A DNA stretch of 64,000 bases from Methylocystis heyeri (lineage in GTDB: Bacteria > Pseudomonadota > Alphaproteobacteria > Rhizobiales > Beijerinckiaceae): contig NZ_CP046052.1 of NCBI RefSeq assembly GCF_004802635.2, positions 868,001-932,000 of the forward strand. The letters are read 5' to 3'. The notes under the pieces are model-generated. The model was not told the origin of the DNA. It searched no databases and saw only the letters and a program-made list of their open reading frames with translations. Below, piece by piece: positions 8,738-50,901 of the stretch. The position numbers and the translations under genes were made by a program. Positions within the stretch are counted from its first letter, which is position 1, and each line of letters opens with the position of its first letter.

Positions 8738-8761
8738 ATTCTCGGTCTCCTCCGTAAACGA

Positions 8762-8795: not shown

Positions 8796-9017
8796 TAACG
8801 TCTTCCTCAATCGCATTTACGCTACCATTGAGGCAATGTTAAGTCGATCCGCACGCTCCGTTTGCGGTCGCAAAGACGCAGGCGCCGCGCTAATTCTCTC
8901 CCCGGGCGAAGTCCCCCGATCTAGCGCCGACGGCCCCCGACGCGGTCATTCACCCGCAGTTCAGCCTCTCGGCGTAGTCTCGGCCCGTCAAATCATTCGG
9001 CAAGAAGGAGTATCTCG

Positions 9018-9740: not shown

Positions 9741-10097
9741 GTTTCCCTCCGTTAGTGGCGCCGTTTAATACGACGTCCTCTTGTGTCTTAAAGACAGATG
9801 CAGGGTCGACGAAGGGGCAGGCTTTGTCAAGCTCCCGATCTCAAGCGTAGCTGCTAATAATGCGACATGGCTTCGGTCCGGCGCGAGCGAACTGGGAGAT
9901 GCTCTCGCATCACGCCGGGCCGGCGCGGGGGAGGCGATCGTCTCGAAAACAGCTGTCGGCCAGCGACGCCGCGTCGCAGGGGCGCTCGTCGCAGATGAGC
10001 CGACTAACCCTCTAATTTAATGGCTTATCCATGAATCCCGCCTAGCTTCGGGGCGCGGCGCTCATCTGATAGTTAAACCGTGAGAAGGTTGCTCCAT
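9741..10097. other. Intergenic region before the GGDEF-EAL gene
   Basis: A frame at 9781-10020 has no ribosome binding site and unconvincing composition. The region probably holds divergent promoters for the 26-aa peptide gene and the GGDEF-EAL gene. GAGAAGG at 10082-10088 could be the original ribosome binding site of the latter. Confidence 0.45.
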
Positions 10098-10202
10098 TTG
10101 AAAAAAAGCCCTTCGAAAGCATTCGCTGAGTTGTTTTCCTTGCCGACGGATGATCTCGAACTCGTCCGCGCGTAGTTCCGCGCGTTCTCAAAGCAGATTC
10201 CG

Positions 10203-12110: not shown

Positions 12111-12119
12111 TGCGACGAG

Positions 12120-12151
12120 GCGCGCAGCGGGATGAAAGTGGCGCTGCGCGC
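12120..12151 (+). terminator. Hairpin after the GGDEF-EAL gene
   Basis: A perfect 10-bp stem (GCGCGCAGCG at 12120-12129, reverse complement at 12142-12151) ten bases after the stop. There is no T-tract, so terminator function is uncertain. Confidence 0.4.
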
Positions 12152-35511: not shown

Positions 35512-36894
35512 CTATTGCCCGCAGGCCGCGTGCAGCCCGCCGCCGAAGACCTCCCGCACCGCCTTGGCGCATTGCAGCGTGAAGACCGTGCCCTTTCCCG
35601 AAGCGCCGCCCTGGCTCGTGACGCCATAGATCGCTAGGCCGGAGCCGAAGTGGAGCGCGTTGAAAGTCGGGCCGCCGCCCGCAAAGGCGCCGTCGGCGGC
35701 GCCGCTGAAACGATAGAGGATATTTTCGGTCCAGTATGGCGAGGAAGGGGCGGCGGGCGGCCTGAGTTCGAACAGCGTTCCGCAGCCGGCTCCGCCGCAG
35801 CCTGTGCCGCCGCCAGCGGAAGTCGCGCCATACAGGTAGCCGCCCTTCAATGTCGGCGGAGCGTATGGCGCCGCGCCGTCTCCACCGCCGTCGAAGCTGT
35901 AAAGCACCGTATACTGCCACTGTGTCGAGGGTGGGACGGGCGGCGCCAAAGAATAGACGGCGCCATTGCCTGCCGCGCCTCCCGCTGTGGTCGTCCCATA
36001 AAACATCCCGGATGAATCTCTGGTGAGACCGCTCCTCGGCCGCGCGCCGTCGCTCCCGTTGAAAGCGTGGAGTACGGTCTCGCACCAGAGGTTTGGGGAT
36101 ATGGGCGTGCAATCGGGGCCGGGCGGCGTCAGTTTGAATATGACCCCCTTGTCGCCGGCGCCTCCGAGCGTGGTCGTTCCGTAGATCGCCCCGCTGGAAT
36201 CGACGAGGAGAGTCGTCCAAGCATTGGAGCCGTCGGCTCCGCCGGTGAAACTGTAAAGAATGGCTCCGGTCCATTGACCACCCGAAGAGGCCGGCGGCGT
36301 GAGCTTATAAATGGCTCCCAAACCATAGGCGCCGCCGGTGATGACGCTGCCGATGAGGGCCCCGGCGCCGTCGAGCACGGCGGCGCCGGAAGGAGTGGTT
36401 GTGGGATAGGTCGGGGGAAAGGTGTAAATCTGTGTGTAAGTCCATGGCTGCGAGGGCTGCAGCGGCGGGGTCAGCTTGAAAGCGACCCCATTATTGTCGT
36501 TGCCTCCGCCGGAGGTCGCGCCGTAGAGCGCTCCGCTCGGGTCCGCGACGAGTCCGGCAGAAGGTCCGGCGCCGTCGGCCCCCGAAAAGCTGTAAAGCAC
36601 GGTCTCGGTCCACTGGCTTTTGCCGGGCGCCGGCGGGGTCAGCTTGAACACCGTGCCGCTTCCCCCAGCACCGCCGCCGCCAGTCGTACCGTAGAGAGCG
36701 CCCCTGTCGTCGGCCAGCAGCGTCACATAGCTCGGGCCTCCGCCGTCGGCCCCGCCGGTGAAGCTGTAAAGCGTGGCTTCGCTGAAAGGCGCCGGCGGCC
36801 AGGTCTGGGCGAGGACCGGCGCGGTCGCGCTGGCCATGAGGAAGGAAACCAGCAGCAGCGTGCGCGAATGTCTGAAACTCCGGCGCATGTTCAT
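35512..36894 (-). CDS. GloVer-repeat secreted protein, paralogue 1
   Basis: A 460-residue exported protein with a signal peptide ending ATAPVLAQ. It is made of seven repeats of about 50-60 residues, each built around the core G-A-L/I-Y-G-T-T-x-G-G-x-x-G-x-G-x-V-F-K-L-T-P-P followed by S-Q-W-T-E-T-V-L-Y-S-F. This matches the GloVer repeat family (TIGR03803 type). Six cysteines are conserved in all full-length paralogues: two in DCTP...NLWCETVL, two in GCGGAGCG and two in the tail LQCAKAVREVFGG...AAC. A seven-bladed propeller is plausible. This is the 3'-most unit of an eight-unit minus-strand array. It has its own leader at 36895-36960. Function of the family is unknown. Confidence 0.88.
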   Translation of the reverse strand: MNMRRSFRHSRTLLLVSFLMASATAPVLAQTWPPAPFSEATLYSFTGGADGGGPSYVTLLADDRGALYGTTGGGGAGGSGTVFKLTPPAPGKSQWTETVLYSFSGADGAGPSAGLVADPSGALYGATSGGGNDNNGVAFKLTPPLQPSQPWTYTQIYTFPPTYPTTTPSGAAVLDGAGALIGSVITGGAYGLGAIYKLTPPASSGGQWTGAILYSFTGGADGSNAWTTLLVDSSGAIYGTTTLGGAGDKGVIFKLTPPGPDCTPISPNLWCETVLHAFNGSDGARPRSGLTRDSSGMFYGTTTAGGAAGNGAVYSLAPPVPPSTQWQYTVLYSFDGGGDGAAPYAPPTLKGGYLYGATSAGGGTGCGGAGCGTLFELRPPAAPSSPYWTENILYRFSGAADGAFAGGGPTFNALHFGSGLAIYGVTSQGGASGKGTVFTLQCAKAVREVFGGGLHAACGQ

Positions 36895-36997
36895 TCCCGC
36901 ATCTCCCGCATCCCAGAATAAAAGCGAAATATTCCTATTGAGCTAGACCAGCGCGGCGACGGGCGCAACCTCGGCGCAAACGGGCGCGGGCGATGCC

Positions 36998-38368
36998 CTA
37001 CTGCACGCAGGCCGTATGCTGGGCGCCGCCGAGCACCTCCCGCGTCGCCTTGGCGCATTGCAGCGTGAACACCGCGCCGAAGCGCGAGGCGCCGCCGATG
37101 TAGCCGGTGACGCCATAGACCGCGAGGCCGAAGCTGAAAGGCAGCGCGTTGAATGTCAGGCCGCCTTGCGGCCAGCCGCCATCGGAGTTCCCGGTGAAGC
37201 GATAGAGGACGTTCTCTGTCCAATGCATTGCAGGGGCCGCGGGCGGCAGCAGCTGGAACAGTGTGCCGCAACCACCGTTGCAGGAGCCGCCGCCGCCATG
37301 AATGGTTGAGCCATAGAGCGCGCCGCCCATCATCGTCAGGTCGGAGACGGGGTTTGCGCCGTCCTGGCCGCCGGCGAAACTGTACAGCACCGTCTCCTGC
37401 CATTGGGTCGAGGGCGGCACGGGCGGGGTCAAGGAAAACACCACGCCCAGGTTGTTTGCGCCTCCGAGTTGGGTCGCGCCATAGAGTACGCCGGAGGCGT
37501 TGTTCAGGACGAGACCGGTCTGGGGCTGCGCGCCGTCGCTCCCCGTGAAAGTATAAAGCACGGTCTCGCACCAGAGGTTTGGGGAAACGGGCGTGCAATT
37601 TGTGCCGGACGGGATCAGCTTGAACACGACCCCATTGTTCTTGACGCCGCCTAACTGCCCCGTGCCGTAGATCGCTCCGTCGGCGCCGAGGGCGAGCGTC
37701 GAATTGGGATAACCGCCATCTGCACCGCCGGTAAAACTGTAAAGCGCGGAGCCGGTCCATTGACCGCCCGAAGAGGGCGGCGGCGTGAGCTTGTAAATCG
37801 TGCCGAAACCGCCGATGCCGCCGGAAGCGTTGGCGCCGATCAGCGCCCCGGCTCCGTCGAACATGGGGGTGGCCAAAGGCATGCTGTACGGGTCGAAGTC
37901 GTAAATCTTGGCGTAGCTCCATTGCGTCGAAGGCGGGACCGGCGGGGTCAGCTTGTACGCGACGCCCGATTGGTTTGCGCCTCCATTGACGGTCACGCCA
38001 TAGAGCGCTCCGTGCGAGTCCCGGACGAGCCCCGAATTAGGATTGGCGCCGCTGGAACCGCCGGTGAAGCTGTAAAGCAGAGTCTCAGTCCACCGGCTCT
38101 TTCCGGGCGCCGGCGGCGTCAGCTTGAAAACCGTGCCGAGATCGCCCGTAGCGCCGTAGAAAGTCGTCCCATAGAGCGCGCCCGTATTATCGGTCAACAG
38201 CGTGACATTTGCGGGCATGGAGCCGTCGGGGGCGCCGGCGAAGCTGTAGAGCGTCGACTCGCTGAACGGCGCTGGCGGCCAGGTCTGCGCCAAAGCGGGG
38301 CTCGCTCCGGCGACGAGAAGAGAGGCCAGCCGTAGCGTGCGCAGAATCGACCCGTTGTGGATATCCAT
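36998..38368 (-). CDS. GloVer-repeat secreted protein, paralogue 2
   Basis: A 456-residue paralogue. Start at 38368 after GGGAG (MDIHNGSILRTLRLASLLVAG, signal ending SPALAQ); a longer open frame upstream only reads the 3' end of paralogue 3 in another phase and is not used. Seven repeats begin at FSESTLYSFAGAPDGS. Cysteines are conserved, with the third pair as SCNGGCG. The C-terminal tail LQCAKATREVLGGAQHTAC matches the other members. The gap to paralogue 1 is 103 bases with the common leader. Secreted; function unknown. Confidence 0.87.
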   Translation of the reverse strand: MDIHNGSILRTLRLASLLVAGASPALAQTWPPAPFSESTLYSFAGAPDGSMPANVTLLTDNTGALYGTTFYGATGDLGTVFKLTPPAPGKSRWTETLLYSFTGGSSGANPNSGLVRDSHGALYGVTVNGGANQSGVAYKLTPPVPPSTQWSYAKIYDFDPYSMPLATPMFDGAGALIGANASGGIGGFGTIYKLTPPPSSGGQWTGSALYSFTGGADGGYPNSTLALGADGAIYGTGQLGGVKNNGVVFKLIPSGTNCTPVSPNLWCETVLYTFTGSDGAQPQTGLVLNNASGVLYGATQLGGANNLGVVFSLTPPVPPSTQWQETVLYSFAGGQDGANPVSDLTMMGGALYGSTIHGGGGSCNGGCGTLFQLLPPAAPAMHWTENVLYRFTGNSDGGWPQGGLTFNALPFSFGLAVYGVTGYIGGASRFGAVFTLQCAKATREVLGGAQHTACVQ

Positions 38369-38471
38369 GGAATCTCCCGGAATTCGGTGAAAATATACCG
38401 GTTCGGTTAGCGTAGGGCGGCGGCATGCGCAACAACGGCGCGGATCCGGGGGGAGCGCCGCCGACGATGCC

Positions 38472-39836
38472 CTACTGCGTGCAGGCCGCGTGCTGCGCGC
38501 CGCCGAACACTTCTCTCGCCGCCTTGGCGCATTGCAATGCGAAAACAGAACCATTGCCCGCAGTGTTGAAGCCAGACGCGACGCCGTAAATACTGGAACC
38601 GGAGCCGAAGTGGAGTTCGTTGAAAATCAGTCCGCCGGTCGGATTGCCGCTGTCGGAGCCGCCGGTGAAACGGTAAAGAATATTCTCTGTCCAGCGCAGC
38701 GTGGGCGGGTTGGGGGGCGCGAGTTCAAACAGCGTGCCGCAACCGAAACCCCCACAGCCGGTTCCGCCGCCGGCAAAAGTCGCGCCATAGAGCGAGCCTC
38801 CCTTCTGGATCAGCGGCGGGTACGGGTTAGCGCCATCCTGGCCGCCGGCGAAGCTGAGGAGCACCGTCTCGAGCCATTGGGTCGAGGGCGGGGTCGGCGG
38901 CGTCAAGGAATACACCACGCCCTGGTTGTATGCGCCTCCCATCTGCGTCGTCCCATAGAGGGCGCCGGAGGCGCTATCCAGGATAAGACCGCTTACGGGT
39001 AGTGCGCCGTCGCCCCCGTTGAAACTGTGCAGGACGGTCTCGCACCAGAGGTTTGGGGAGGCGGGCGTGCAATTGGCGCCGGGCGGCGTCAACGCGAACA
39101 CCACCCCAAAATTGTTGGCGCCCCCATACTCCGCCGTGCCGTAGATCGCTCCGTCGGTGTCCACCAGCAGCGTCGTATAGGGAATGCGGCCATCGGCTGC
39201 GCCGACGAAATTGTAAAGCGCCGCGGCGGTCCATTGACTGCCCGGCGAGGCCGGCGGCGTGAGCTTGTATATCGTGCCGCCCCCATAGGCGCCGCCGTTG
39301 CTGGCGGCGCCTATCAGCGCCCCGGAGCCGTCGAATATGGGGGCGTTGTAAGGGACGTCTCCGTTAGGCGCGCTGAAGTCGTAAATCTTGGTATAGCTCC
39401 ATTGGGTCGAAGGAGAAACCGGCGGGGTCAGCTTGAAAGCGGCGCCAAGGTTGTGTGCGCCGCCCCCTTGGGTCACTCCATAGAGCGATCCGTGCGAATC
39501 CCTGATTAGCCCGGAACTGGGGTTTGCGCCGTCCGAGCCCGAAAATTTGTAAAGCACGGTTTCGGTCCATTGGCTCGCGCCGAACACCGGCGGCGTCAGC
39601 TTGAACACCGCGCCGCTACCGCTGCCGCCGCTATAGGTCGTCCCGTAGAGCGCGCCCTTGTCGTCGGCCAGCAGCGTCACGAATTCCGGGGTTGCGCCAT
39701 CGGAGCCGGCGAAGCTGTGAAGCGTCGCCTCGCTGAACGGGGCCGGCGGCCAGGTCTGGGCCAGAACTGGGGCGGGCGCGCCCATAACGAGACTGCAAAC
39801 CATCCGCAGATGTCTGCCGTGAATGCCTATGTTCAT
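38472..39836 (-). CDS. GloVer-repeat secreted protein, paralogue 3
   Basis: A 454-residue paralogue with signal peptide ending APAPVLAQ and the shared mature start TWPPAPFSEATLHSFAGSDG. Seven repeats are easily counted by their closing aromatic motif (LHSF, LYKF, IYDF, LYNF, LHSF, LLSF, LYRF). Conserved cysteines: NCTP, NLWCETV, GCGG.GCG and the tail LQCAKAAREVFGGAQHAAC. The 103-base gap to paralogue 2 repeats the leader pattern. It is one of the best-preserved copies and a good reference for the array. Confidence 0.88.
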   Translation of the reverse strand: MNIGIHGRHLRMVCSLVMGAPAPVLAQTWPPAPFSEATLHSFAGSDGATPEFVTLLADDKGALYGTTYSGGSGSGAVFKLTPPVFGASQWTETVLYKFSGSDGANPSSGLIRDSHGSLYGVTQGGGAHNLGAAFKLTPPVSPSTQWSYTKIYDFSAPNGDVPYNAPIFDGSGALIGAASNGGAYGGGTIYKLTPPASPGSQWTAAALYNFVGAADGRIPYTTLLVDTDGAIYGTAEYGGANNFGVVFALTPPGANCTPASPNLWCETVLHSFNGGDGALPVSGLILDSASGALYGTTQMGGAYNQGVVYSLTPPTPPSTQWLETVLLSFAGGQDGANPYPPLIQKGGSLYGATFAGGGTGCGGFGCGTLFELAPPNPPTLRWTENILYRFTGGSDSGNPTGGLIFNELHFGSGSSIYGVASGFNTAGNGSVFALQCAKAAREVFGGAQHAACTQ

Positions 39837-39921
39837 GGATATCCCCGCAACTGAGCATGAAATATGATTATTTTGCTAGCGCGGCGCGGCGAAAGGCGCA
39901 AGCGTGGCTTGCGCCCTACTA

Positions 39922-41283
39922 TTACGGGCCGCACGCCGCATGCTGGGCGCCGCCGAAGACCTCTCGCGCCGGCTTGGCGCATTGCAGCGAGAAAACCGTG
40001 CCGACGCCCGAAGTGCCGCCTGAGGCGGAGACGCCATAGACCGCCAGGCCGAATCCGTAAGGCAGCGCGTTGAAAATCAGCCCGCCTTGAGGAAAGCTGC
40101 CGTCCGGGGAGTTGCCCGTGAAACCATAAAGGATGTTCTCCGTCCAGTGGAATGTGGGGGCGGCCGGCGGCGAAAGCTGGAACAGCGCTCCGCAGCCCAA
40201 GCCCCCCGCGCAGCCGGTTCCGCCACCCGCAGTGGTCGCGCCATATAGCGAGCCGCCCAACAGGGTCAAAGGAGCGTATGGGTTTGCCCCATCCTGGCCG
40301 CCGGCGAAACTGTACAGCACCGTCTCGAGCCATTGGGTCGAGGGCGGAACGGGAGGCGTCAGGGAATACACCACGCCCAGGTTATGGGCGCCTCCTGATG
40401 AGGTCGTCCCATAGAGGGCGCCGGACGCGCCGTTCAAGATGAGACCGGCATACGGCGAGGCGCCGTCGCTGCCGCCGAAGGCGTGCAGCACAGTTTCGCA
40501 CCACAGGTTTGGGGAGACGGGCGCGCAATTGGTTCCGGACGGCGTCAGTTTGAACGCAACCCCCTTGCCGCCGGCGCCTCCGGCCAATGTGGTGCCGTAA
40601 ATCGCTCCGCTGGTGTCCACCACGAGGGTTGAAGCGGGGGAGCCGCCGTCGGCGCCTCCGGCGAAAGTATAAAGTGTGGCGCCGGTCCACTGCCCGCCTG
40701 AAGAGGTCGGCGGCGTGAGCCTGTAAATCGCGCCGAAACCGGATGCGCCGCTGCCGTAGGTGGTTCCTATGAGCGCCCCTGCGCCGTCGAATATGGGGGC
40801 GCCGTTAGGCCACGCGCCCGTAGACTGGTTGAAGTCGTAGATCTTGGCGTAGCTCCATTGCGTCGAGGGCGGAGCCGGCGGGGTCAGCTTGTAGGCGACG
40901 CCATCGTTGTTGGCGCCTCCCGTTGTCGTCACGCCATAGAGGGCGCCGCTGTAGTCCCTCGTAAGCCCCGAGTAGGGGTTGCCGCCGTCGGAGCCCCCCG
41001 CGAAGCTGTATGCCGTGGTCTGGGTCCACTGGCTCTTTCCGGGCGCCGGAGGCGTCAGCTTGAACACCGTGCCCTGCGCGCCCGGGCCGCCGTTATGGGT
41101 CGTCCCGTAGAGAGCGCCCGTGCTGTCGGCCAGCAGTGTGACATACCCGGGAACGCCGCCGTCGGAGTTGATGTTGAAGCTGTGAATCGTCGCCTCGCTG
41201 AAAGGGGCGGGCAGCCAGGTCTGGGCCAAGGCGTGGCCGCTCGCTGCGGCGGCGAGAATTGAGGCCGCCAGCGGCGCGCGCAT
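39922..41283 (-). pseudogene. GloVer-repeat paralogue 4, start cut off by IS insertion
   Basis: The body is an intact 454-codon frame from ATG 41283 (MRAPLAASILAAAASGHALA, then QTWLPAPFSEATIHSF) with seven repeats, the six cysteines and the normal tail. But an 838-bp IS element (41286-42123) sits immediately upstream. If the element and one TA copy are removed, the sequence reads on in frame to an ATG at 42150-42148 (MSLCDDFRL, then MRAPLAAS) behind a CCGGGAG ribosome binding site, exactly like the other paralogues (Phe-Arg at the same place). So the IS separates the first nine codons and the translation signals from the gene. Translation may still start at 41283, but no ribosome binding site is visible there. 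Confidence 0.85.
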
Positions 41284-41355
41284 TAGGGTCCAGACCCATA
41301 AAGTGCTTGGCGTAAAGAGCGGGTTGTGATTCAGGGCTTCCGAAAGGAAGCGCCG

Positions 41356-41748
41356 ATGATTCGCGATCAATTCTGGCTGACAGATGCGCAGTTTTCGAAG
41401 ATTGCGCCACATCTTCCCACTGACACGCGCGGCAAGGCGCGGGTCGACGACCGCAGGGTCATCAGCGGCATCGTCCAAGTGCTCAAATCCGGCGGGCGCT
41501 GGGTCGACGCACCGCCGGAATACGGGCCCAAAAAGACACTTTATAATCGCTATGTCCGTTGGGCCGCCAAGGGCGTCTGGGTCGACTTGTTCCATGCACT
41601 CGCTCAAGCCGGCGGGCCGCCGACGGAAGTTCTCATCGACTCCTCGGCGGTGAAAGCGCATCGCTCGGCCAGCGGCGGCAAAGGGGGGAGAAAAATCAGG
41701 CCATCGGCCGCTCGCGCGGTGGACGCACAACGAAAATCCACGCGCTGA
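41356..41748 (+). CDS. IS5-family transposase, OrfA
   Basis: A 130-residue first part of a DDE transposase. It starts MIRDQFWLTDAQFSKIAPHL after GAAAGGAAG and contains the DUF4096-like N-terminal domain (GGRWVDAPPEYGPKKTLYNR) and the first catalytic Asp (VLIDSSAVKAHR). At the run of six G (41683-41688) a -1 slip would fuse it to OrfB, giving GGKGGEKNQAIGRSRGG, the usual family sequence. Without slippage it ends out of phase shortly after. Confidence 0.9.
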   Translation: MIRDQFWLTDAQFSKIAPHLPTDTRGKARVDDRRVISGIVQVLKSGGRWVDAPPEYGPKKTLYNRYVRWAAKGVWVDLFHALAQAGGPPTEVLIDSSAVKAHRSASGGKGGRKIRPSAARAVDAQRKSTR

Positions 41749-42113
41749 CCGACGCGCAATGTCGACCCATAGCTTTCATGCTCACAGCCGGAAACGTCGC
41801 CGATTGCACAGCGGGCGCGGAACTTCTTGCCCATCTTCCGCCTTGCGAAGTCCTCCACGGCGACAAGGGATACGACAGCAACGCCATCCGCCGTAGGATC
41901 GAGGACGGCGGCGCACTGCCGAATATTCCGCCCAAGGCCAACCGCAAATGGAAGAACTGCTTTTCGCCGCTCCTCTATCGAAACCGCAACGCCATCGAGC
42001 GCATGTTCTGCCGTTTAAAGGATTTTAGACGCGTGGCGACGCGCTACGACAGAAACGCCGTCAATTTCCTCGCCGCCGTTTGCCTCGCTGCCACTGTCAG
42101 CTATTGGTTATGA
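41559..42113 (+). CDS. IS5-family transposase, OrfB (reached by -1 frameshift)
   Basis: The catalytic C-terminal part of the same transposase. Meaningful protein starts at about 41688 (EKNQAIGRSRGGRTTKIHAL). The second Asp is in LHGDKGYDSNAIRR and the Glu in NAIERMFCRLKDFRR, completing the DDE triad. The open frame upstream of 41688 is not used. The two-frame layout with a G6 slip site is usual for this group, so the element may be active. Confidence 0.9.
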   Translation: MGRQGRLGRLVPCTRSSRRAADGSSHRLLGGESASLGQRRQRGEKNQAIGRSRGGRTTKIHALTDAQCRPIAFMLTAGNVADCTAGAELLAHLPPCEVLHGDKGYDSNAIRRRIEDGGALPNIPPKANRKWKNCFSPLLYRNRNAIERMFCRLKDFRRVATRYDRNAVNFLAAVCLAATVSYWL

Positions 42114-42147
42114 GTCTGGGCCCTAGTCTGAAATCGTCGCAAAGGCT

Positions 42148-42164
42148 CATCTGAAAACTCCCGG
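42148..42164 (-). promoter_or_regulatory. Orphaned start codon and ribosome binding site of paralogue 4
   Basis: ATG at 42150-42148 with CCGGGAG at 42164-42158 on the minus strand. It would read eight codons (to 42126) before entering the IS right end. Confidence 0.75.
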
Positions 42165-42241
42165 AATTAAGCGCAAATATTACTGTTCCACTAGCGCAGC
42201 CGCGTAGAAGTCGTAAGCCGACCGCGAATGCTGGCGTCGCC

Positions 42242-43621
42242 CTATGGCGTGCACGCCGCGTGTTGGGCGCCGCCGAACACTTCTCGCGTCGCCTTCGCGC
42301 ATTGCAGCGCGAAGACCACGCCGGCGTTCGAAGTCCCGCCGACGTTCGTGACGCCGTATGCCGCCAGGCCAGCGCCGAAGCGAAGCTCGTTGAAAATCAG
42401 GCCGCCTTGCGGAAAACCGCCATCGCCGCCGGCGGCGAAACGGTAGAGGATATTCTCGGTCCAGCGCGTCGCGGGAGCCACGGGTGGCGCGAGTTGGAAC
42501 AGCGCGCCGCAGCCGAGGCCGCCGCAGCCGGTTCCGCCGCCGTTATAGGTGGCGCCATAAAGCGAGCCGCCCATCAGGGTCACCGGGGAGTATGGGGTTG
42601 CGGCGTCCTGGCCTCCTGCGAAGCTGTAAAGCACCGTTTCCTGCCATTGGGTCGAGGGCGGAATCGGCGGCGTCAACGAAAAAACGACGCCCAGATTATG
42701 CGCGCCTCCCGCCGAGGTCGTCCCATACAAGGTCCCGGAGGAATCCATCGAGAGCCCGGCCAGGGGCGCCGCGCCGTCGGTCCCGCTGAATTTGTACAGC
42801 ACAGTCTCGCACCAGAGGTTGGGAAATACGGGCGTGCAATTGGCGCCTGAAGGCGTCAGCTTGAACACCACCCCCTTGCCGCCGGAGCCGCCCCCCTGGG
42901 TCGTGCCGTAGATCGTTCCATTGCTGTCGGCGGAGAGAAACTGGGGATTGGCGCCGTCGGCGCCGGCGGTGAAATTGTAAAGCGCCGCGCCGGTCCAAGG
43001 CGCCCCGGCCGAAGCCGGCGGCGTGATCTTGTAAATCGTGCCGCCGTTATAGTAGCCGCCGTAGCGGGCTGCGCCGATCAGCGCTCCCATGTTGTCGAAT
43101 ACCGGAGGGCCATACGGATCCGCTCCTGTGGCCAGGGCGAAGTCGTAAATCCTGGCGTAGCTCCATTGCGTGGAGGGCGAAACCGGCGGGGTCAGCCGGA
43201 AAGCGGCGCCGAGATTGGCTGTTCCCGGCGCCAGTTGCGTCACCCCATAGAGCGCCCCGACCGAATCCCTGACGAGCCCCGAATAGGGGCCGGCGCCGTC
43301 GGAGGCCGAAAAGCTGTACAGCACGCTCTCGGTCCATTGGCTCTTGCCGAACGCCGGCGGGGCCAGCTTGAACACCACGCCATTTCCGTTGGCGCCGCCG
43401 GCCAATGTGGTCCCGTAGAGCGCGCCCTTGCTGTCGGCCAGCAGCGTGACAAGTCCAGGGGAGCCGCCGGCGGCGGAGCCGGTGAAGCTGTACAGCGCGG
43501 TCTCGCTGAGAGGAGTCGGGGGCCAGGTCTGGGCCAGGACCGGGTTGGCGGCTCCGGCGACCAGAACGGCGGCCAGCGGCAGTTTTTTTCTCGAGAACCT
43601 GAAAGCGTTGCGAATGTTCAT
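42242..43621 (-). CDS. GloVer-repeat secreted protein, paralogue 5
   Basis: A 459-residue paralogue. N-terminus MNIRNAFRFSRKKLPLAAVL with a signal ending ANPVLAQ. Seven repeats, six cysteines (NCTPVFPNLWCETVL; GTGCGGLGCG; tail LQCAKATREVFGGAQHAAC). Reads FTGSAAGGSPGLVTLLADSK in the first repeat. Leader at 43622-43680 is like those of the other copies. Its 3' end lies about 90 bases before the orphaned start of paralogue 4, the normal spacing of this array. Confidence 0.88.
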   Translation of the reverse strand: MNIRNAFRFSRKKLPLAAVLVAGAANPVLAQTWPPTPLSETALYSFTGSAAGGSPGLVTLLADSKGALYGTTLAGGANGNGVVFKLAPPAFGKSQWTESVLYSFSASDGAGPYSGLVRDSVGALYGVTQLAPGTANLGAAFRLTPPVSPSTQWSYARIYDFALATGADPYGPPVFDNMGALIGAARYGGYYNGGTIYKITPPASAGAPWTGAALYNFTAGADGANPQFLSADSNGTIYGTTQGGGSGGKGVVFKLTPSGANCTPVFPNLWCETVLYKFSGTDGAAPLAGLSMDSSGTLYGTTSAGGAHNLGVVFSLTPPIPPSTQWQETVLYSFAGGQDAATPYSPVTLMGGSLYGATYNGGGTGCGGLGCGALFQLAPPVAPATRWTENILYRFAAGGDGGFPQGGLIFNELRFGAGLAAYGVTNVGGTSNAGVVFALQCAKATREVFGGAQHAACTP

Positions 43622-43686
43622 TGGGATCTCCAGGAATTAAAGACGCAAAAATATGAACCTGTGGAGCGGAAGGCGCCGCGGATGCG

Positions 43687-45066
43687 CTACTGCGCGCAGG
43701 CCCCGTGCTGGGCGCCGCCGAACACTTCCCTTGCCGATCTGGCGCATTGGAGCGTGAAGACCGCGCCGAAGCCCGAGCCGCCGTAGTTGGCGACGCCATA
43801 GATCGCGGAGCCGGAGCCGAAGCCGCGCGCATTGAATATCAGGCCGCCTTCCGGCCAGGAGCCGTCGGAGCCGCCGGTGAAGCGATACAGGATGTTCTCG
43901 GACCAGCTCAGGGCGGGCGCGACCGGCGGCACGAGCTCGAACAGAACGCCGCAGCCGCTGCCGCAGCCGGTTCCGCCGCCATAAAGGGTCGCGCCATAGA
44001 GCGAGCCGCCCATGAGCGCCAGGGGAGAGTGTGGGTTGACGCCGTCCTGGCCGCCCGAGAAGCTGTAGAGCGTCTCCTCCACCCATTGGATCGAGAGGGA
44101 AATGGGGGGCGTCAACGAATAGACGGCGCCCTTGCCATTCGCGCCTCCATCTGGGGTCGTCCCATAGAGGACGCCGGAGGCGTTATCCAGGACGAGACCG
44201 CTGTCGGGATGCGAGCCGTCGTTGCCGTTGAAGGCGTGAAGCACGGTCTCGCACCAGAGACTGGGGGATATAGGCGTGCAGTTGGAGCCGGCCGCGGTCA
44301 GCTTGAAGGCGACCCCGTTGCCGCCGCTGCCGCCGCCCGAAGCCGTGCCGTAGATCGCGCCGCCGGTGTCGACCATGAGCGTCGAAGCGGGACTGCCGCC
44401 ATCGGCGCCGCCGGTGAAATTGTAGAGCGTCGCGGCGGTCCATTGACTGCCCGGAGAACTCGGCGGGGTGAGCTTGTATATCGTGCCGCCCCCACCGGCC
44501 CCGCCGGAGACGGTGGAGCCGATCAGCGCCCCGGCGCCGTCGAATATGGGGGCGCCGTAAGGGGTGCTCCCCGTAGACTGGTCGAAGTCGTGAATCTTGG
44601 TGTAGCTCCACTGGGTCGAGGGCGGGACCGGCGGGGCCAGCTTGAAGGCGACGCCAATGCCCTTGGCGCCTCCCATCTCCGTCATGCCGTAGAGCGCGCC
44701 GCCAGCATCCCTCGCGAGCCCGGAGTTGGGGTTGTAGCCGGCGTCGGGGACCGTAATGGAGAAACTGTAGAGTGTGGTCTTGGTCCACCGGCTTTGTCCG
44801 AGCGCCGGCGGCGTCAGCTTGAACACCGTACCGCCGCCGTCGCCGCCGAAAGTGGTGGTCCCATAGAGCGCGCCTTTGCTGTCGGGCAGCAGCGTGACAA
44901 ATTCCGGCCTAGCCCCGTCGGCGCTCCCCGCGAAGCTGTAGATCGTCGCCTCGCTGAGCGGCGCCGGCGGCCAGGTCTGGGCCAGCGCGGGCACTGTCGC
45001 GCCGGCAATAAGGAGGGCGGCCAGAGACGGATGACTCGGTAGTCTGAAAGCGCTGCGAATGTTCAT
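43687..45066 (-). CDS. GloVer-repeat secreted protein, paralogue 6
   Basis: A 459-residue paralogue. N-terminus MNIRSAFRLPSHPSLAALLI with a signal ending TVPALAQ, closely matching paralogue 5. Seven repeats and the six cysteines are present (NCTPISPSLWCETVL; GTGCGSGCG; tail LQCARSAREVFGGAQHGAC). The 65-base gap to paralogue 5 is the shortest in the array. It is the last intact unit before the decayed end. Confidence 0.88.
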   Translation of the reverse strand: MNIRSAFRLPSHPSLAALLIAGATVPALAQTWPPAPLSEATIYSFAGSADGARPEFVTLLPDSKGALYGTTTFGGDGGGTVFKLTPPALGQSRWTKTTLYSFSITVPDAGYNPNSGLARDAGGALYGMTEMGGAKGIGVAFKLAPPVPPSTQWSYTKIHDFDQSTGSTPYGAPIFDGAGALIGSTVSGGAGGGGTIYKLTPPSSPGSQWTAATLYNFTGGADGGSPASTLMVDTGGAIYGTASGGGSGGNGVAFKLTAAGSNCTPISPSLWCETVLHAFNGNDGSHPDSGLVLDNASGVLYGTTPDGGANGKGAVYSLTPPISLSIQWVEETLYSFSGGQDGVNPHSPLALMGGSLYGATLYGGGTGCGSGCGVLFELVPPVAPALSWSENILYRFTGGSDGSWPEGGLIFNARGFGSGSAIYGVANYGGSGFGAVFTLQCARSAREVFGGAQHGACAQ

Positions 45067-45157
45067 CGATGGCTCCGGGAACTAAGCGAAATAATAGAAT
45101 TTGGGCTAGCCCAGCGCGGCGAAGGGCGCAAGCTCGGAAGGGGAACGCGAGAATCCG

Positions 45158-45292
45158 CTACTGCGCGCAGGCCGCGCGTTGCGCGCCGCCGAACACTTCC
45201 CTTGTCGCCTTGGCGCATTGCAGCGCGACGGCGATGACGAGCGACGCTAGCGACAGACAGGCATAAGGTCTGAAATTTCGCGGGATATTCAT
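45158..45292 (-). pseudogene. GloVer remnant 7: signal peptide joined to C-terminal tail
   Basis: A 44-codon frame that reads MNIPRNFRPYACLSLASLVI, then directly ALQCAKATREVFGGAQRAAC. The start, signal region and exact C-terminal tail of the family are kept, and all seven repeats are missing. This is most simply an internal deletion of a full paralogue. Fragments of a repeat (SARLVRDASGAFCGVALRQA) lie upstream at about 45340-45415. Whether the 44-residue product is made is unknown. Confidence 0.75.
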
Positions 45293-45518
45293 GCGCGTCC
45301 CCATTGAGCGTTCGAAACGCCGGGCCTCGGAATTGTCGGAACCGATCGTCGGCCTGACGCAAGGCCACGCCGCAGAACGCTCCACTCGCATCCCTTACGA
45401 GCCGAGCGGAGGAGCTGTTACCGAGAGGGCGCGGAAATAACTGCAAGGGAAGTTCCGACGCCGGCTCGAACGCCGCACAGTTTTTCAGGGAGGCGATCCC
45501 GGGCGGGGCCGCCCGGCG

Positions 45519-46077
45519 CTATCGCGCGCAGGCCGCGTGCTGGGCTCCGCCGAACACCTCCCGCGCCGCCTTGGCGCATTGCAGCGTGAAGACCGTGCCG
45601 AGGTTCGAACCGCCACAGCCGGTTCCTCCGCCCTTCAGAGCCGAGCCGTTGAGCGCGCCGCCCATCAGCGTCAGTGTGGAGGTGGGGTTTGCGGCGTCCT
45701 GGCCGCCGGCGAAGCTGTAAAGCACCGTCTCCAGCCATTGAGTCGAGGGCGGAGCGGGCGGCGTCAAAGAAAAGACTACGCCGTTGTCGTGCGCCCCCCT
45801 CTCTGGGTCGTCCCGTACAAGGTTCCGGAAGAATCCATCGTTAATCCAGAGATTGCCCCTGAGCCGTCGCTCCCGCCGAAGGCATGCAGCACAGTCTCGC
45901 ACCAGAGGTTTTGACCTCTGGGCGCGCAGTCGGAGCCCTGCGGCGTCAGTTTGAACACGACGCCTTGGCCGGCTCCTCCGGCCAGGGGCGTGCCGTAGAG
46001 CGCTACGGGGCGGCCGCTATAAGAAAAGAAACCAGTGACGGTGTGTTCAGATCTCTGAAAGCGTCGAGGATGTTCAT
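45519..46077 (-). pseudogene. GloVer remnant 8: truncated and frameshifted
   Basis: Starts like a paralogue (ATG 46077; MNILDAFRDLNTPSLVSFLI) but reaches TAG within about 25 codons. Recognisable family sequence continues in another frame (ALYGTPLAGGAGQGVVFKLT; NLWCETVLHAFGGSDGSG), then in a third (NGVVFSLTPPAPPSTQWLET; tail LQCAKAAREVFGGAQHAAC). At least one early deletion or nonsense change and one internal frameshift are present. About three repeats remain. It is the 5'-most unit of the array. Confidence 0.8.
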
Positions 46078-46248: not shown

Positions 46249-47073
46249 ATGGCGATTTATAAAGCGGCAAATCTCATTGAAGTCTACAGAGCCAAATCGA
46301 AATCAAAGGATATAAACGAACTGACGGGCAGGACCGGGCGGCCGGACCTCACCCGCTTTGTGACAAGAAACATCATAGCCAAATTGCCCTTGAACGAGTC
46401 CTCCTGCGTCGTCGACGTCGGCTGCGGTCACGGCCTCCTGCTGCATTACGCCGCCGAGATGGGCGTCAATCCCTATAAGGGCAGACTGATCGGCATCCTG
46501 CCCACCAAAGAAGAGGTGTCGCGGGTCCGCGCCCATCTCCTCGACGATCCCGCGGTGCGGAGCGGCCTTATCTCGATCGAACTCGGAACCGCGGAAAGGA
46601 CGGGCCTCCCGGACGGCTTCGCCGATGTGGCGGTGTGCAACAGCGTGATACATGGCGCGGGGCGTTCGCTCGAAGACGCAAAAGCCGCGCTGGCGGAATT
46701 CAATCGGATATTGAAGCCGGGCTGCGTCTTATTTCTCGGCGAGCTTCCCGACTCCGATGAATTTGCGGGAAGAAACTGCGGAGATTCGATAACCGGCTGG
46801 CTTTTTTATGTTTTGAAGAATCAGGGGCTGGACGCCTTTTTGGCCAGGCTGAAACAGGTGGCTCTCGCGCTGGTCGGCGAAGAGCCGTTCGTCGTCGCTC
46901 CAAAGAAGCTTTTTTATAGCCCGCCGGGAGAGTTCATCGATTTGGCGAGGCAATTCGGTTTCGAACCCATCGAGCATTACAGGCATGTCGAGATACACCA
47001 GGATGCCGGGGAGGGCGAAAGCGCGACCCGTTGGGATTATCTTTTAAGAAAGATTTCCGCGGTTCAAAATTAG
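46249..47073 (+). CDS. Class I SAM-dependent methyltransferase
   Basis: A 274-residue methyltransferase. Motif I is VVDVGCGHGLLLHYA near residue 54, and the acidic and post-I motifs (GTAERTGLPDGFADVAVCNS; FNRILKPGCVLFLGELP) are clear. The substrate is unknown; position at the head of a polysaccharide-type cluster suggests sugar or lipid-carrier methylation. The ATG follows GGAGCAAGAC. Only 24 bases separate it from the glycosyltransferase gene, so they are probably co-transcribed. Confidence 0.88.
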   Translation: MAIYKAANLIEVYRAKSKSKDINELTGRTGRPDLTRFVTRNIIAKLPLNESSCVVDVGCGHGLLLHYAAEMGVNPYKGRLIGILPTKEEVSRVRAHLLDDPAVRSGLISIELGTAERTGLPDGFADVAVCNSVIHGAGRSLEDAKAALAEFNRILKPGCVLFLGELPDSDEFAGRNCGDSITGWLFYVLKNQGLDAFLARLKQVALALVGEEPFVVAPKKLFYSPPGEFIDLARQFGFEPIEHYRHVEIHQDAGEGESATRWDYLLRKISAVQN

Positions 47074-47097
47074 TTCGCCCTGCGCGTTGAGCTCGAG

Positions 47098-48030
47098 ATG
47101 AGAAACGAACCCCTGCTGACGATAGGCATTCCCAGTTACAACAGGCCGAAGAAGCTCGAGGAGCTTCTCGATCAGTTGTCCGCCGGGTTGGAAGCCGAAC
47201 GATTCAACGTGTTGCTGGTGGACGACGGCGATAATCCGCAGACCCTCGCGGTCGCAGCGAAATTCATGGAGCGTCCCGGTTTCTCCTATCTCAAGAATGA
47301 AACCAATATCGGCTACGCGCGATCCTTTTGCCGGCTGATACAGCAGTGCCCGAGCGAATATCTGCTGGCGACGGGCGACGACGATCTGGTTGAAACGGCC
47401 AATCTCGAGAGGATCGAAGCCGTCCTGCAGGAGAAACGCCCGGATTTCGCCTGTCCGATCTATTTGCTGGGCGGCCAGATCTATCGCGGCGTATCGGTCG
47501 ATAGAACGATCCTTCCGGCGGAATATATCCTGTGTTCAGGACACGCGCCCGGCCTGGTCTATCGCGCCGAGGCGTTCAGACCGCTGTTGCCCGTGCTGCA
47601 TAAGCGGGTGGAGCAGCGAAAATCGGATGCGTTCTGCTACCCGCAGGTGCTGTGCGCCATTGCGGCGCTCCTGCAAGAACGGCAAGCCGTTTTCCTCGGC
47701 GTCGCGAGCGCCTACGACAATGAGAGCTTGCCGAGCGATCTGACCGACAGCGGCGGCGGGCGCTACTGGGATTACGAGTCGAGGCTGCAGCAGTTCGCGG
47801 CTTTCGACGAGTTCATCGCAAATTTCCCTGCCGCGCATGAGTCGGCTCGCGCAGAGATGCTGCGCGCTCATCGCTCGAATTTTATCCATCGGGTCATTTT
47901 CGCCTGGAGCCAGAACGACCCTGCTTCGGAGGCGAGATTCGAACGCCTGATGATCAGAAATCAGATAGCGCGAAAGATGCCGCGGAAATTGAAGGAGCTG
48001 GTGAAAATGGCGCTTCGCTCGAATGCGTAA
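47098..48030 (+). CDS. Family 2 glycosyltransferase
   Basis: A 310-residue GT-A glycosyltransferase. It begins LLTIGIPSYNRPKKLEELLD; the nucleotide-sugar site is NVLLVDDGD and the metal-binding motif is LATGDDDLVET (Asp-Asp-Asp near residue 101). The C-terminal part is helical and lacks membrane spans, so it is cytosolic or peripheral. Sugar donor and acceptor are not predictable. It lies between two methyltransferase genes in the surface-glycan cluster. Confidence 0.88.
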   Translation: MRNEPLLTIGIPSYNRPKKLEELLDQLSAGLEAERFNVLLVDDGDNPQTLAVAAKFMERPGFSYLKNETNIGYARSFCRLIQQCPSEYLLATGDDDLVETANLERIEAVLQEKRPDFACPIYLLGGQIYRGVSVDRTILPAEYILCSGHAPGLVYRAEAFRPLLPVLHKRVEQRKSDAFCYPQVLCAIAALLQERQAVFLGVASAYDNESLPSDLTDSGGGRYWDYESRLQQFAAFDEFIANFPAAHESARAEMLRAHRSNFIHRVIFAWSQNDPASEARFERLMIRNQIARKMPRKLKELVKMALRSNA

Positions 48031-48272
48031 ACCGATCCGGTGCTGACGGGGAGGGTTTGCAATGCTGCGAGCTGCGTCATAGTGACGCCGACGCCCGCGG
48101 ATGCATGGCCGCCGGCCGTGGACTTTTCGAAAACCCGCCGGCGTCGGGAGTTGTTCTGGATGACGCCACGATCTGCGAAACGGTCGTTCTCTCCCTTCAG
48201 GCTTTCGCAACGGTTGGCGATGAGTTACGCAATTGCGCAATTCGCTGCTCGGCATCTTGAGGGCGTCGGTCG

Positions 48273-49085
48273 ATGAATCAGAGGCTAATCTATGACGTCG
48301 GCATGCATACGGGAGCCGATTGCGATTTCTATCTAAAAAAGGGATTCAATGTCGTCGGGATAGAAGCCAATCCGGCTCTCGTGGCGCATTGCGAAAAGCG
48401 GTTCGCGTCCGAGATCGAATCCGGGCGGTTGCAAATCGTCAACAGAGCTGTGAGCGAAGCACAGGGAACGATCGAGTTCTATATAGACGATGACAATCTC
48501 CTCTGGGGAACGGCGGAGCCCGAAGCCAGGCAAAGATTCCAGGAGATGGGGCACGCGCTGCGGGTTATCGAGGTCCAAGCGACCACGATGAAGGAGATAT
48601 TCGCCTCGTTTGGGGTTCCCTATTACATGAAGATCGACATTGAGGGTTACGATCATCTGTGCCTGCTGGGCCTGGAGGGGATATCCGGCAGGCCCAGACA
48701 TATTTCGGTAGAGGCCAGCGCCACCTCATTTGAGGCGACGCAGGCTCAGCTCGAATTGCTCAAGAGCTTCGGCTACACGAAATTCAAACGGGTTTTGCAG
48801 AATAACGTGCACAAGCAAAAATGCCCCACGCCTGCGCGCGAGGGGAAATATGTGCAGTATGAATTCGGGGCGAGCTGCAGCGGTCTGTTCGGAGAGGAAC
48901 TGCCCGGGCGGTGGCTCAGTTTCGACGAGGCGGTCAGAGCTTACAGGATATTCTACTGGAAGGTGGGCATGATCGGGCCTCATACCGGCGTCTTCAGGGC
49001 GGTAAAGAGCCGATTGGCCGGGCGCATACTCGGGCGGCTGTTTTACCCCGGCGGAGGTTGGTACGACACGCACGCCACTTACTGA
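48273..49085 (+). CDS. FkbM family methyltransferase
   Basis: A 270-residue FkbM-type O-methyltransferase. Motifs are LIYDVGMHTGADCDFYLKKG, VVGIEANPALVAHCE and YMKIDIEGYDHLCLLGLEG. FkbM enzymes often methylate sugars or small hydroxyl groups in exopolysaccharide and antibiotic loci. Start at 48273 after TTGAGGGCG. The 240-base gap upstream holds no supported gene. Part of the plus-strand glycan cluster. Confidence 0.9.
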   Translation: MNQRLIYDVGMHTGADCDFYLKKGFNVVGIEANPALVAHCEKRFASEIESGRLQIVNRAVSEAQGTIEFYIDDDNLLWGTAEPEARQRFQEMGHALRVIEVQATTMKEIFASFGVPYYMKIDIEGYDHLCLLGLEGISGRPRHISVEASATSFEATQAQLELLKSFGYTKFKRVLQNNVHKQKCPTPAREGKYVQYEFGASCSGLFGEELPGRWLSFDEAVRAYRIFYWKVGMIGPHTGVFRAVKSRLAGRILGRLFYPGGGWYDTHATY

Positions 49086-49184
49086 CGACTTCGGGACGAT
49101 GCGGGACGGCCAGAAACGCAGCTATAGACAAGAGCTTATTCCGCTCATATTTTTCTTCGGGCAGCTGGTTTTTCGTGGGGACCG

Positions 49185-49994
49185 ATGCAAAGAATCCGTG
49201 GCGCGCTCCGTTTTTTCGTTCCATTTCGTCACTTCGTGGAGTCCTGCCTGGGGCGGCGGCTTCCTTTGCCTTCGTTCGCTGTTTCGCCGCCGCGCATGCC
49301 GGCGTTCGCCGCGAAAGGCGACGAGGATTTTCAGTCCGCTTATCGGGGGCGTTCGGCGGAAATTTTCTTCGCGAACGACGGCCCCGTGATTTACAAATGG
49401 CCACACTATTTTGCGGTCTATGATCAGTTGCTCGGGCCGTTGGTCGGCACGGAAGTCAGAATGCTCGAAATCGGCGTGTGCAAGGGAGGCTCGCTCAAGC
49501 TCTGGCGAGAGTTCTTTGGACCAAGAGCGGTGATCTTCGGCATAGATATCGATCGCCGCTGCGCGGCCTTCGACGGCCAGTTCGCCAGCGTGCGGATCGG
49601 CTCTCAGGACGATTCCGATTTCCTTCGGAAAGTCGTCGCTGAAATGGGCGGATTGGATGTCGTGCTGGACGACGGGTCGCACGTAGCGAGTCACCAGCGC
49701 GCCAGTTTCAATGCGCTGTTTCCTCTCCTCAGTGAAGGCGGGCTTTATATCATCGAGGATATGCACACCGCCTATTGGGCCGAATATGAAGGCGGCTTGA
49801 GGAAACAGGGCACGGCAGTCGAGTTTCTCAAGGAGAAAATCGACGAGATGCACAGGCATTACCGCAATCCGGAGTTGAACAGGCCCGAGTCCATGCCGGA
49901 GATAGAAAGCGTGCAATTTTTCGATTCAATTGCGGTGGTTCGAAAGCGCAAGCAACTGCCGAGGTTTCATATGCCTCGTCCATCGCCGCAATGA
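49185..49994 (+). CDS. Methyltransf_24-type SAM-dependent methyltransferase
   Basis: A 269-residue methyltransferase related to macrocin/mycinamicin-type sugar O-methyltransferases. Motif I is MLEIGVCKGGSLKLWREFF, followed by IFGIDIDRRCAAFDGQ, VVLDDGSHVASHQRASF and LYIIEDMHTAYW (acidic metal-binding residues in IDID, LDDGSH and IED). It likely methylates a sugar hydroxyl. The N-terminal 40 residues are basic and may be shorter than annotated. Third methyltransferase in the cluster. Confidence 0.85.
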   Translation: MQRIRGALRFFVPFRHFVESCLGRRLPLPSFAVSPPRMPAFAAKGDEDFQSAYRGRSAEIFFANDGPVIYKWPHYFAVYDQLLGPLVGTEVRMLEIGVCKGGSLKLWREFFGPRAVIFGIDIDRRCAAFDGQFASVRIGSQDDSDFLRKVVAEMGGLDVVLDDGSHVASHQRASFNALFPLLSEGGLYIIEDMHTAYWAEYEGGLRKQGTAVEFLKEKIDEMHRHYRNPELNRPESMPEIESVQFFDSIAVVRKRKQLPRFHMPRPSPQ

Positions 49995-50147
49995 CCGGTT
50001 TGCGAGTGCGCGGGTTGGTTCCTGCCGCGGCGTTATATCATGCGACGATTTGTCCGGGCTGAACATTGCTCTATGCCGTTCATAATTCATGCTTATTTGT
50101 CTTGCCGCGTTTACCCTGTCTGCCGTTACGAAACAGGTGCGGGCTTT

Positions 50148-50747
50148 ATGCTGCTCTCAAAAATGAGAATCCCGAGGCTGTGGGGCGCGGTTCTGCTCAT
50201 ATGTCTCACATGCGCAGGGTGCGATACGACTTCGAACCTGGGCCCGCTTTCGCCCGAGGAACTGGATGCGCTCAACAAATCCGTGGAAGCGTCTCCCACT
50301 TTGCAGGCGGGCGAAAAAATTCGGATCACCGTTTTCGGGGAAGATCGTCTTTCCGGCGAATATGAGATCGATCCGGCCGGTTATGTGTCGCTTCCCTTGG
50401 CCGGCAACGTAAAGGCGTCGGGCTTGAGCAAGCCGCAGCTCGAACAAGCGCTCGCCAAAAAATTTCGCAGCGAATATCTGCGTGATCCCAAAGTCACGGT
50501 CGACGTGGCGAGCTTTCGGCCCTTTTTCATATTCGGCGAAGTCGCAAGGCCCGGAAAATATCCGTTCGAGAGTGGGCTCAACGCAATAACTGCAACGACT
50601 CTGGCCGGCGGCTCGACCTACCGCGCGAGTCGCACGAAAATCCTGATCCAGCACTCAGGCGAGGCGGGGTTTCACGAATATTCGCTGGCGCCGAATGTTC
50701 CGGTGCTCCCCGGCGATCTGATCAAAGTGCCCGAACGGTTTTTTTAG
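50148..50747 (+). CDS. Wza/KpsD-type polysaccharide export lipoprotein, short form
   Basis: A 199-residue exported lipoprotein. Signal peptide and lipobox LTCAGC (Cys near residue 24), then the poly-export domain (TLQAGEKIRITVFGEDRLSG, YEIDPAGYVSLPLAGNVKAS) and one SLBB-like segment (FFIFGEVARPGKYPFESGL). It is about half the length of full Wza and lacks the C-terminal helical barrel, as is common for short export proteins in alphaproteobacteria (ExoF/GumB-like), which work with a separate outer-membrane component. The beta-barrel encoded at 53009 is a candidate. Start 50148 chosen over an upstream in-frame ATG at 50040 because the lipobox then sits at a normal place. Confidence 0.88.
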   Translation: MLLSKMRIPRLWGAVLLICLTCAGCDTTSNLGPLSPEELDALNKSVEASPTLQAGEKIRITVFGEDRLSGEYEIDPAGYVSLPLAGNVKASGLSKPQLEQALAKKFRSEYLRDPKVTVDVASFRPFFIFGEVARPGKYPFESGLNAITATTLAGGSTYRASRTKILIQHSGEAGFHEYSLAPNVPVLPGDLIKVPERFF

Positions 50748-50901
50748 CTGTTGATCCGATCGCGCCTTGTGCTGGGATGAACTTCCAGAGAGGCGGAAGG
50801 TTTCATGCGAAGGATGCAGGCCTTGTCGGCGCCCGAGGGCCGAGCCGCAACTCGTCTCGCGAATGGAGGCGGAGCCCTGAAAGCGATAGGATGTCGTAGC
50901 G

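Follow-up and report, generated by a model that had tools for sequence, protein, structure and literature searches.

The window analyzed here, a stretch of 64,000 nucleotides from the Methylocystis heyeri genome (contig NZ_CP046052.1; G000:C1:868001-932000, where G000 is the host genome), contains a tandem array of genes for GloVer proteins (Gloeo_Verruco; TIGR03803). The host is probably a methane-eater. The minus strand carries, head to tail, six long units (U1 to U6), two deletion relics (U7 and U8), and a small remnant; an insertion sequence (IS) lies among them. In window coordinates, the features are:

35512..36894, minus strand: U1, predicted GloVer propeller gene, 460 residues; signal peptide, seven predicted blades, C-terminal tail
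36998..38368, minus strand: U2, predicted GloVer propeller gene, 456 residues from the aligned ATG
38472..39836, minus strand: U3, predicted GloVer propeller gene, 454 residues; exceeds the Pfam gathering score for Tachylectin PF14517
39922..41283, minus strand: U4, predicted GloVer propeller gene, repeats intact; original start cut off by the IS, 453 residues from the ATG behind it
about 41286..42123, plus strand: IS5-like insertion sequence; overlapping transposase frames 41326-41748 and 41559-42113 (DUF4096, DDE_Tnp_1); TA flanks
42242..43621, minus strand: U5, predicted GloVer propeller gene, 459 residues
43687..45066, minus strand: U6, predicted GloVer propeller gene, 459 residues
45158..45292, minus strand: U7, relic; signal peptide joined in frame to the C-terminal tail, 44 codons plus stop, no blades
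45387..45421, minus strand: blade-2 remnant; decayed blade-2 coding sequence between U8 and U7
45519..46077, minus strand: U8, relic that has undergone two deletions inside the gene and contains a stop and a frame change; blade 5, the tail, and a portion of blade 6 can still be recognized

Unit starts were trimmed by comparison among the units; the longer listed open reading frames (ORFs) of U2 and U4 are upstream extensions. An earlier, sequence-only reading had proposed a tandem array of TIGR03803-type paralogues on the minus strand, with intact members of 454 to 460 residues, and this holds. All six long units exceed the curated 44-bit cut-off of the TIGR03803 profile (148 to 181 bits, with six or seven matched stretches each), and they align end to end, with 62 to 70% protein identity and 71 to 76% DNA identity over the 15 pairs. 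U2 falls within the proposed length range when read from its aligned ATG. Signal peptides were called by eye, as a hydrophobic stretch followed by A-Q. Six cysteines are invariant across eight sequences: U1 to U6 and the two members (P1 and P2) of a GloVer gene pair elsewhere in the host genome. Moreover, a tryptophan is invariant in the CD loops of blades 1 to 6 of the six units: W95, W151, W208, W270, W326, and W388.

Predicted blade geometry and evidence of selection

A literature search under the family names returned no papers, which fits the earlier reading that GloVer proteins have no known function; the fold, however, is predictable. Two AlphaFold models of window sequences (pTM 0.78 each; mean pLDDT 76 and 74) contain 27 and 25 strands of at least three residues, read as seven four-strand blades. 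Two strands of the first model are just two residues long; in the pattern as read, the N-terminal strand completes the last blade. The products are predicted to be seven-bladed β-propellers, each a single propeller that would be closed by its N-terminal strand. Searched against the PDB with Foldseek, the fold returned Photorhabdus PHL/PLL lectins at ranks 1 to 5 (TM-score to the query 0.41 to 0.51). VIA-align placed integrin-alpha and virginiamycin B lyase propellers on top; tachylectin chains are missing from its list, an absence that carries no weight against one.

Sequence comparison points to the tachylectins. U3 scores 35.5 bits with Tachylectin PF14517 (gathering score 29.8); U1, U2, U4, and U5 fall below that score, and U6 gave no hit. 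Genome-wide, the 13 host rows for PF14517 all lie in GloVer ORFs, five of them over the cut-off; none of the four rows in a distant genome of the same class (G382) is over it. Searched against PDB sequences at E up to 1, the array profile matched no PLL chain and a single entry, 5c2m (whole-sequence E 0.0016; best stretch 0.42). The record is titled 'Predicted protein'; it is probably the tachylectin-2 from N. vectensis (Smock et al. 2016). Passages of one paper mention a structure of N. vectensis tachylectin-2 and do not give the code 5c2m (PMC4735018). The GloVer blade may be a distant relative of tachylectin/VCBS-type blades.

Whole-gene ratios of nonsynonymous to synonymous substitution (dN/dS) are 0.33 to 0.54 (28 pairs of U1 to U6, P1, and P2), with dS among the array copies of 0.50 to 0.66. 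Substitution is unevenly distributed: dN/dS runs from 0.80 in BC loops (bootstrap 0.56 to 1.12) through 0.51 (DA loops), 0.46 (AB loops), and 0.28 (CD loops) down to 0.20 for the tail. The BC and DA loops together are more variable than the AB and CD loops (permutation p 0.005). Outside the signal peptide, 20 positions hold at least six different residues in the eight sequences, and 16 of these lie in BC or DA loops.

A custom GY94-type site model was fitted to 428 codons of the array plus the pair; its posteriors are naive, not Bayes-empirical-Bayes. Log likelihood (lnL) rises from -7749.0 under M1a to -7705.4 under M2a, so that twice the difference (2dlnL) is 87.3, and M2a assigns omega 5.9 to 7.0% of the codons. 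In 322 null simulations under M1a with fixed branch lengths, the maximum was 9.32, against 76.2 for the real data by the same restricted statistic. Three separate segments, each with its own tree, gave 2dlnL values of 30.5, 19.4, and 35.6. The sites follow a blade periodicity: 16 of the 17 with posterior above 0.8 occupy blade offsets +4, +5, +11, -12, or -14, a recurrence at equivalent blade positions that was matched by none of 20,000 random placements. On the strand map, 13 of the same 17 sites lie in BC or DA loops and three, at +4 or +5, in a longer-drawn B strand; the last, residue 406, is off the recurring offsets. Selection for diversity in this array, as the sequence-only reading had proposed, is supported.

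A second array of five GloVer genes in the host genome served as an independent replicate. The offsets were fixed on the window array (array 1) plus the pair and applied to genes B1, B2, B4, and B5 of array 2 (320 codons); B3, being too distant, was excluded. At the 33 offset sites omega is 1.36, and elsewhere it is 0.19 (2dlnL 133.3 against a single omega). For two sets of control offsets it was 0.26 and 0.34. The replicate thus strongly confirms the position effect, and weakly an omega above 1. The same loop positions are also among the most variable in the GloVer proteins of the distant genome G382 (six proteins, 24 blades).

These sites suggest how a blade may be partitioned. Purifying selection would keep a framework of LYGTT..GG....G, PP......W, and D..G. 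Diversifying selection would act, in the BC loop, on the two residues that follow YGTT and on the residue preceding the next G and, in the DA loop, on positions around DGxxPx. Given standard propeller topology, the variable residues are predicted to ring one face. In the 5c2m alignment, the tachylectin-type GW tryptophan falls at blade offset -15, adjoining the selected offsets -14 and -12; this offset is variable, yet lies outside the 17 best-supported sites.

Several observations weigh against this interpretation. Within array 1, the A strand and the signal peptide each have dN/dS 0.59, higher than the DA loop, and a fixed-site omega of 1.62 is circular because the offsets were chosen there. 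Array 2 taken alone has an offset omega not significantly over 1 (2dlnL 2.8), and a third set (B3, S22, and S26) shows weak face contrast: 0.54 for the top, 0.48 for the bottom, and 0.48 for the strands. Recombination, like codon constraint acting on silent sites, can inflate site models of paralogues. Runs of identity over all sites are non-random (for summed runs, 0 of 300 permutations reached the observed value; for the longest run, 49 of 300 did), and two of the 28 pairs, U4/U6 and U3/U4, share long common runs (2 of 100 permutations each); uneven constraint along the gene or some exchange can produce such runs. GC content at third codon positions is 0.704 at the variable offsets and 0.808 in the rest (Fisher p 2e-5), so that dS outside the offsets may be lowered by codon bias and omega raised to some degree. 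There is little room for misalignment at +4 and +5, because glycines flank them. As for the fold, the models rest on six sequences; the Foldseek and VIA-align lists also contain enzymes and integrins; PF14517 matches below its cut-off occur also in 2 of 14 control genomes; and the tachylectin GW motif of the DA' loop is absent, with DGxxP instead and the tryptophan column on a variable position.

Two other origins for the diversity were considered and set aside. Against recent amplification or gene conversion, the copies are old and diverged. The earlier reading had proposed to test for gene conversion, and a run test on silent sites gave no signal (312 of 500 permutations equalled or exceeded the observed value); the all-site runs leave some exchange possible. 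The earlier suggestion of selection for dosage is likewise not supported, because the copies have diverged from one another and silent sites carry no gene-conversion signal. Targets of diversity-generating retroelements carry NNY variable codons, produced by adenine mutagenesis from a template repeat and a reverse transcriptase. At the variable offsets G occurs in third position, and A does so at five of six offsets, so that the variable sites are not NNY-restricted and speak against this mechanism; no search aimed at a reverse transcriptase or a template was made.

Relics, relatives, and neighborhood

Of the eight units first proposed, six long genes and two relics stand. The blade-2 remnant between U8 and U7 is an addition, which brings the array to at least nine traces. 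The two units described earlier as decayed are deletion relics. In U8, read by eye, most of blades 1 to 4 and the blade 6/7 region are gone, and a stop lies near the first junction; TIGR03803 scores its N-terminal piece at 44.3 bits, barely over the cut-off, and its C-terminal piece at 14.5 bits, under it. U7 has no TIGR03803 hit because the repeat region is deleted. If expressed, its 44-codon fusion would yield a secreted mini-protein consisting of the tail alone.

The 35-base blade-2 string recurs, with up to three mismatches, at two other places in the host genome: C1:1267842, beside a tail relic, and C1:1907338, upstream of the GloVer pair. An intergenic repeat element was considered and rejected, since by eye the string matches decayed blade-2 coding sequence. 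Array members appear to be lost through internal deletion. For the birth-and-death pattern proposed earlier, loss is supported by U7 and U8, by the blade-2 remnant, by another two relics of the host genome, and by a relic in a congener; recent birth is not supported.

The IS was thought to interrupt one unit. It does sit in U4, within the signal-peptide codons; it leaves the repeats of U4 intact, and the ATG that follows it immediately, in frame, provides a signal-peptide-like start. Domain search identifies an IS4/5-type transposase in two overlapping frames. The element's ends, its imperfect terminal repeats, and the TA flanks were read by eye; an exact-seed search found no inverted repeat at the ends.

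The host genome yields 109 blade matches at E up to 0.001. The loci read comprise, besides the window array, array 2, the pair, and six single genes. Array 2 occupies G000:C1 617-624 kb (locus positions 5198-12151). The genes it follows look, by eye, like a two-component system of response regulator and sensor kinase. For the array 2 genes that were taken, the ORF list gives GTG or TTG starts.

Fifteen of the host genes (six in array 1, five in array 2, the pair, and two singles) end in a common two-cysteine tail of 18 to 21 residues, LQC....REVFGGA...AC with variations. They form one clade (support 95/94) in a tree of 27 proteins that leaves out the 869-residue S28; array 1 plus the pair is supported at 100/100, and within it array 1 itself branches like a star, its tips long and its inner nodes weakly supported. 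The tail is absent from the host's other four GloVer ORFs and from those read in five other genomes. One single GloVer ORF of about 870 to 900 residues, at positions 2143-4842 of locus L028, has some 15 blade motifs and no tail and possibly encodes two propellers per chain. Another, at positions 2303-3493 of locus L027, has no obvious start; the frame just upstream also matches TIGR03803, so that it may be frameshifted.

Among 39 genus genomes, the tail peptide matched 20 times at E <1e-3, always in GloVer genes or relics; its use as a general sorting signal was set aside on this ground. Nineteen matches are in the host: the 15 genes, U7, U8, and two relics. The other (E 6e-5) is in a congener (G033, C3; positions 2651-3070 of locus L101), in a collapsed GloVer remnant with a tail. 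This remnant follows an ORF of regulator type, which by eye is similar to the one next to the host's GloVer pair. This arrangement suggests that a GloVer gene formerly stood at that locus and was then lost. Eight weaker rows (E 0.38 to 0.92) fall in seven other congeners. NCBIfam and Pfam searches of the units found no C-terminal sorting or anchor family; the conserved tail is present.

GloVer distribution is rare and patchy. Matches occur in 3 of the 39 genus genomes (93 blade rows in the host, five and three in the others). Of 397 genomes of the family 13 have them, and of 385 genomes of the class 3 do; the host is included each time. None of 14 control genomes has any. At most 17 candidates were scored per genome in the family and class surveys, and per-genome counts there are lower bounds. 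Large sets are found in the host and in G382, which lies outside the order; the latter yielded 232 first-look candidates in the class survey and the host 140, so the host is not alone in having a large GloVer family. Two of eight stretches read in G382 hold two adjacent GloVer genes, and no GloVer ORF read there has the tail. The search for the array in related genomes, another check that had been proposed, returned little: at E 1e-30 the array profile matched 1 of 60 relatives, and that one partially (G046). A scan of named genomes gave one partial match in a Beijerinckiaceae metagenome-assembled genome, and five plasmid records hold distant GloVer matches (<60% identity).

To the left of the array lie genes for a FUSC-type membrane protein and a choloylglycine-hydrolase-family protein. 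The FUSC neighbor is present in 3 of the 39 genus genomes, host included (E 1e-40), so synteny was not used to look for an empty site in congeners. On the other side, divergent from the array, is a group of glycan-type genes:

46249..52851, plus strand: methyltransferases, GT2 glycosyltransferase, FkbM methyltransferase, polysaccharide export protein, and acyltransferase/SGNH

Homologues of the export gene are present in 13 of the 39 genus genomes (E 1e-30).

A candidate recognition repertoire

The array probably encodes a diversifying repertoire of secreted recognition proteins, lectin- or adhesin-like, built as predicted propellers. The long-unit products would be exported through a Sec-type signal peptide; each has six conserved cysteines, presumably paired, and the 18 to 21 residue tail at the chain's end. 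Secreted binding proteins that differ in ligand are suggested because the frame is conserved and the ring varies, with signal peptides, cysteines, and several paralogues. The ligands may be glycans or surface molecules that are themselves variable; a sugar or glycan is the leading guess, not a result.

The plainest alternative is that these are relaxed tandem duplicates: an old, ordinary repeat family whose free surface loops drift, with no selection for diversity. The relics and the IS indicate that loss is tolerated, whole-gene dN/dS is below 1, the array 2 offset omega is compatible with 1, and the same loop positions vary in the GloVer proteins of G382. Drift of this kind is nevertheless unlikely, given a selected-class omega near 6 in array 1 plus the pair, a 2dlnL of no more than 9.32 in the 322 simulations that had a neutral class at omega 1, the low omega at other loop offsets of the array 2 blades, and the retention of cysteines and tail. 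Less likely still is an enzymatic role outside the cell, with propellers akin to lyases, sialidases, or lactonases that differ from one another in substrate specificity. L-rhamnose-glucuronate lyase, sialidases, lactonase, and virginiamycin B lyase do appear in the structural lists, and a polysaccharide-type gene cluster adjoins the array. By eye, however, Gly, Tyr, Phe, Pro, Trp, Leu, and Cys make up most of the invariant columns, together with the repeated blade-motif Asp; no single, non-repeated charged set seems to resemble an active site, and the PDB sequence search at E up to 1 returned no enzyme that might suggest one.

A further possibility overlaps with the recognition repertoire, and we hold it as a minority view: the proteins might bind the cell's own surface or exopolysaccharide, with variation that tracks a changing capsule or blocks phage attachment. 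The divergent neighbor cluster, with its glycosyltransferase, methyltransferases, and polysaccharide export, fits this idea, and GloVer genes and the FUSC neighbor, each in 3 of 39 genus genomes, are distributed as expected for strain-specific surface loci. Yet the broader presence of the export gene means that the cluster is not specific to GloVer carriers, no such cluster was seen by eye beside array 2 (for the pair, the reading covered a single side), and no anchor of a known kind was found with NCBIfam or Pfam.

Comparison with known propellers sets the recognition repertoire in context. Tachylectin-like propellers belong to the VCBS supercluster, with a tryptophan in loop CD as a family feature; in the accessible text, the CD-loop tryptophan of tachylectin-2 anchors a helix that helps form the sugar pocket, to which the DA-loop GW region also contributes (PMC8023676, Pereira and Lupas 2021). 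The array products share the tryptophan preceding strand D, in the CD loops of blades 1 to 6, and differ in having seven predicted blades rather than five and DGxxP rather than GW. The Photorhabdus PLL lectins are likewise seven-bladed and occur as several homologous propellers per genome (five in P. laumondii, according to the available part of PMC12203525), and they lead the Foldseek list. They differ in giving no sequence match at E up to 1, and in that their tails are not recognized as signal peptides (same source), whereas signal peptides are read by eye here. The six long units share the profile of GloVer proteins at large; the two-cysteine tail found here in 15 genes is lacking in the host's other four GloVer ORFs and in those read from five other genomes.

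By analogy, the closest functional parallel comes from fungi: the WD40 sensor of HET-D/E carries, at the predicted partner interface, hypervariable repeat sites under diversifying selection (PMC12222747, in the portion available). There, the sensor domain belongs to an intracellular receptor and concerted evolution keeps the repeats alike; here, the proteins are predicted to be secreted, the blades have diverged, and diversity is spread across paralogues. Positive selection is also known for a tachylectin-type propeller, coral (Oculina) tachylectin-2, for which the available part of the report gives 12 sites with no significant clustering and none in the sugar pocket (PMC2880987); the selected sites here recur at equivalent blade positions. 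Among the papers listed by one literature search for propellers with positive selection and hypervariable sites, none concerns GloVer, judged by title or abstract start.

What is new here is the selection result, and with it a candidate diversifying propeller repertoire in an uncharacterized bacterial family. A wider generalization is speculative and rather doubtful: that bacteria practice extracellular, repertoire-based recognition with paralogous seven-bladed propellers that share one frame and diversify a binding ring as their partners change. Candidate partners would be phage, predators, competitors, plant glycans, or variants of the cell's own capsule. Should this hold, GloVer proteins overall might be a recognition scaffold, because in distant members of the family, too, these blade positions rank with the most variable.

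Together, these results turn a named, functionally blank family into a testable hypothesis about fold (a seven-bladed propeller of tachylectin-like type), face (the BC and DA loops), and residues (+4, +5, +11, -12, and -14). A propeller face with repeating hypervariable sites is already known from fungal non-self recognition. The same pattern in predicted secreted bacterial paralogues would offer a simple system for the evolution of binding repertoires.

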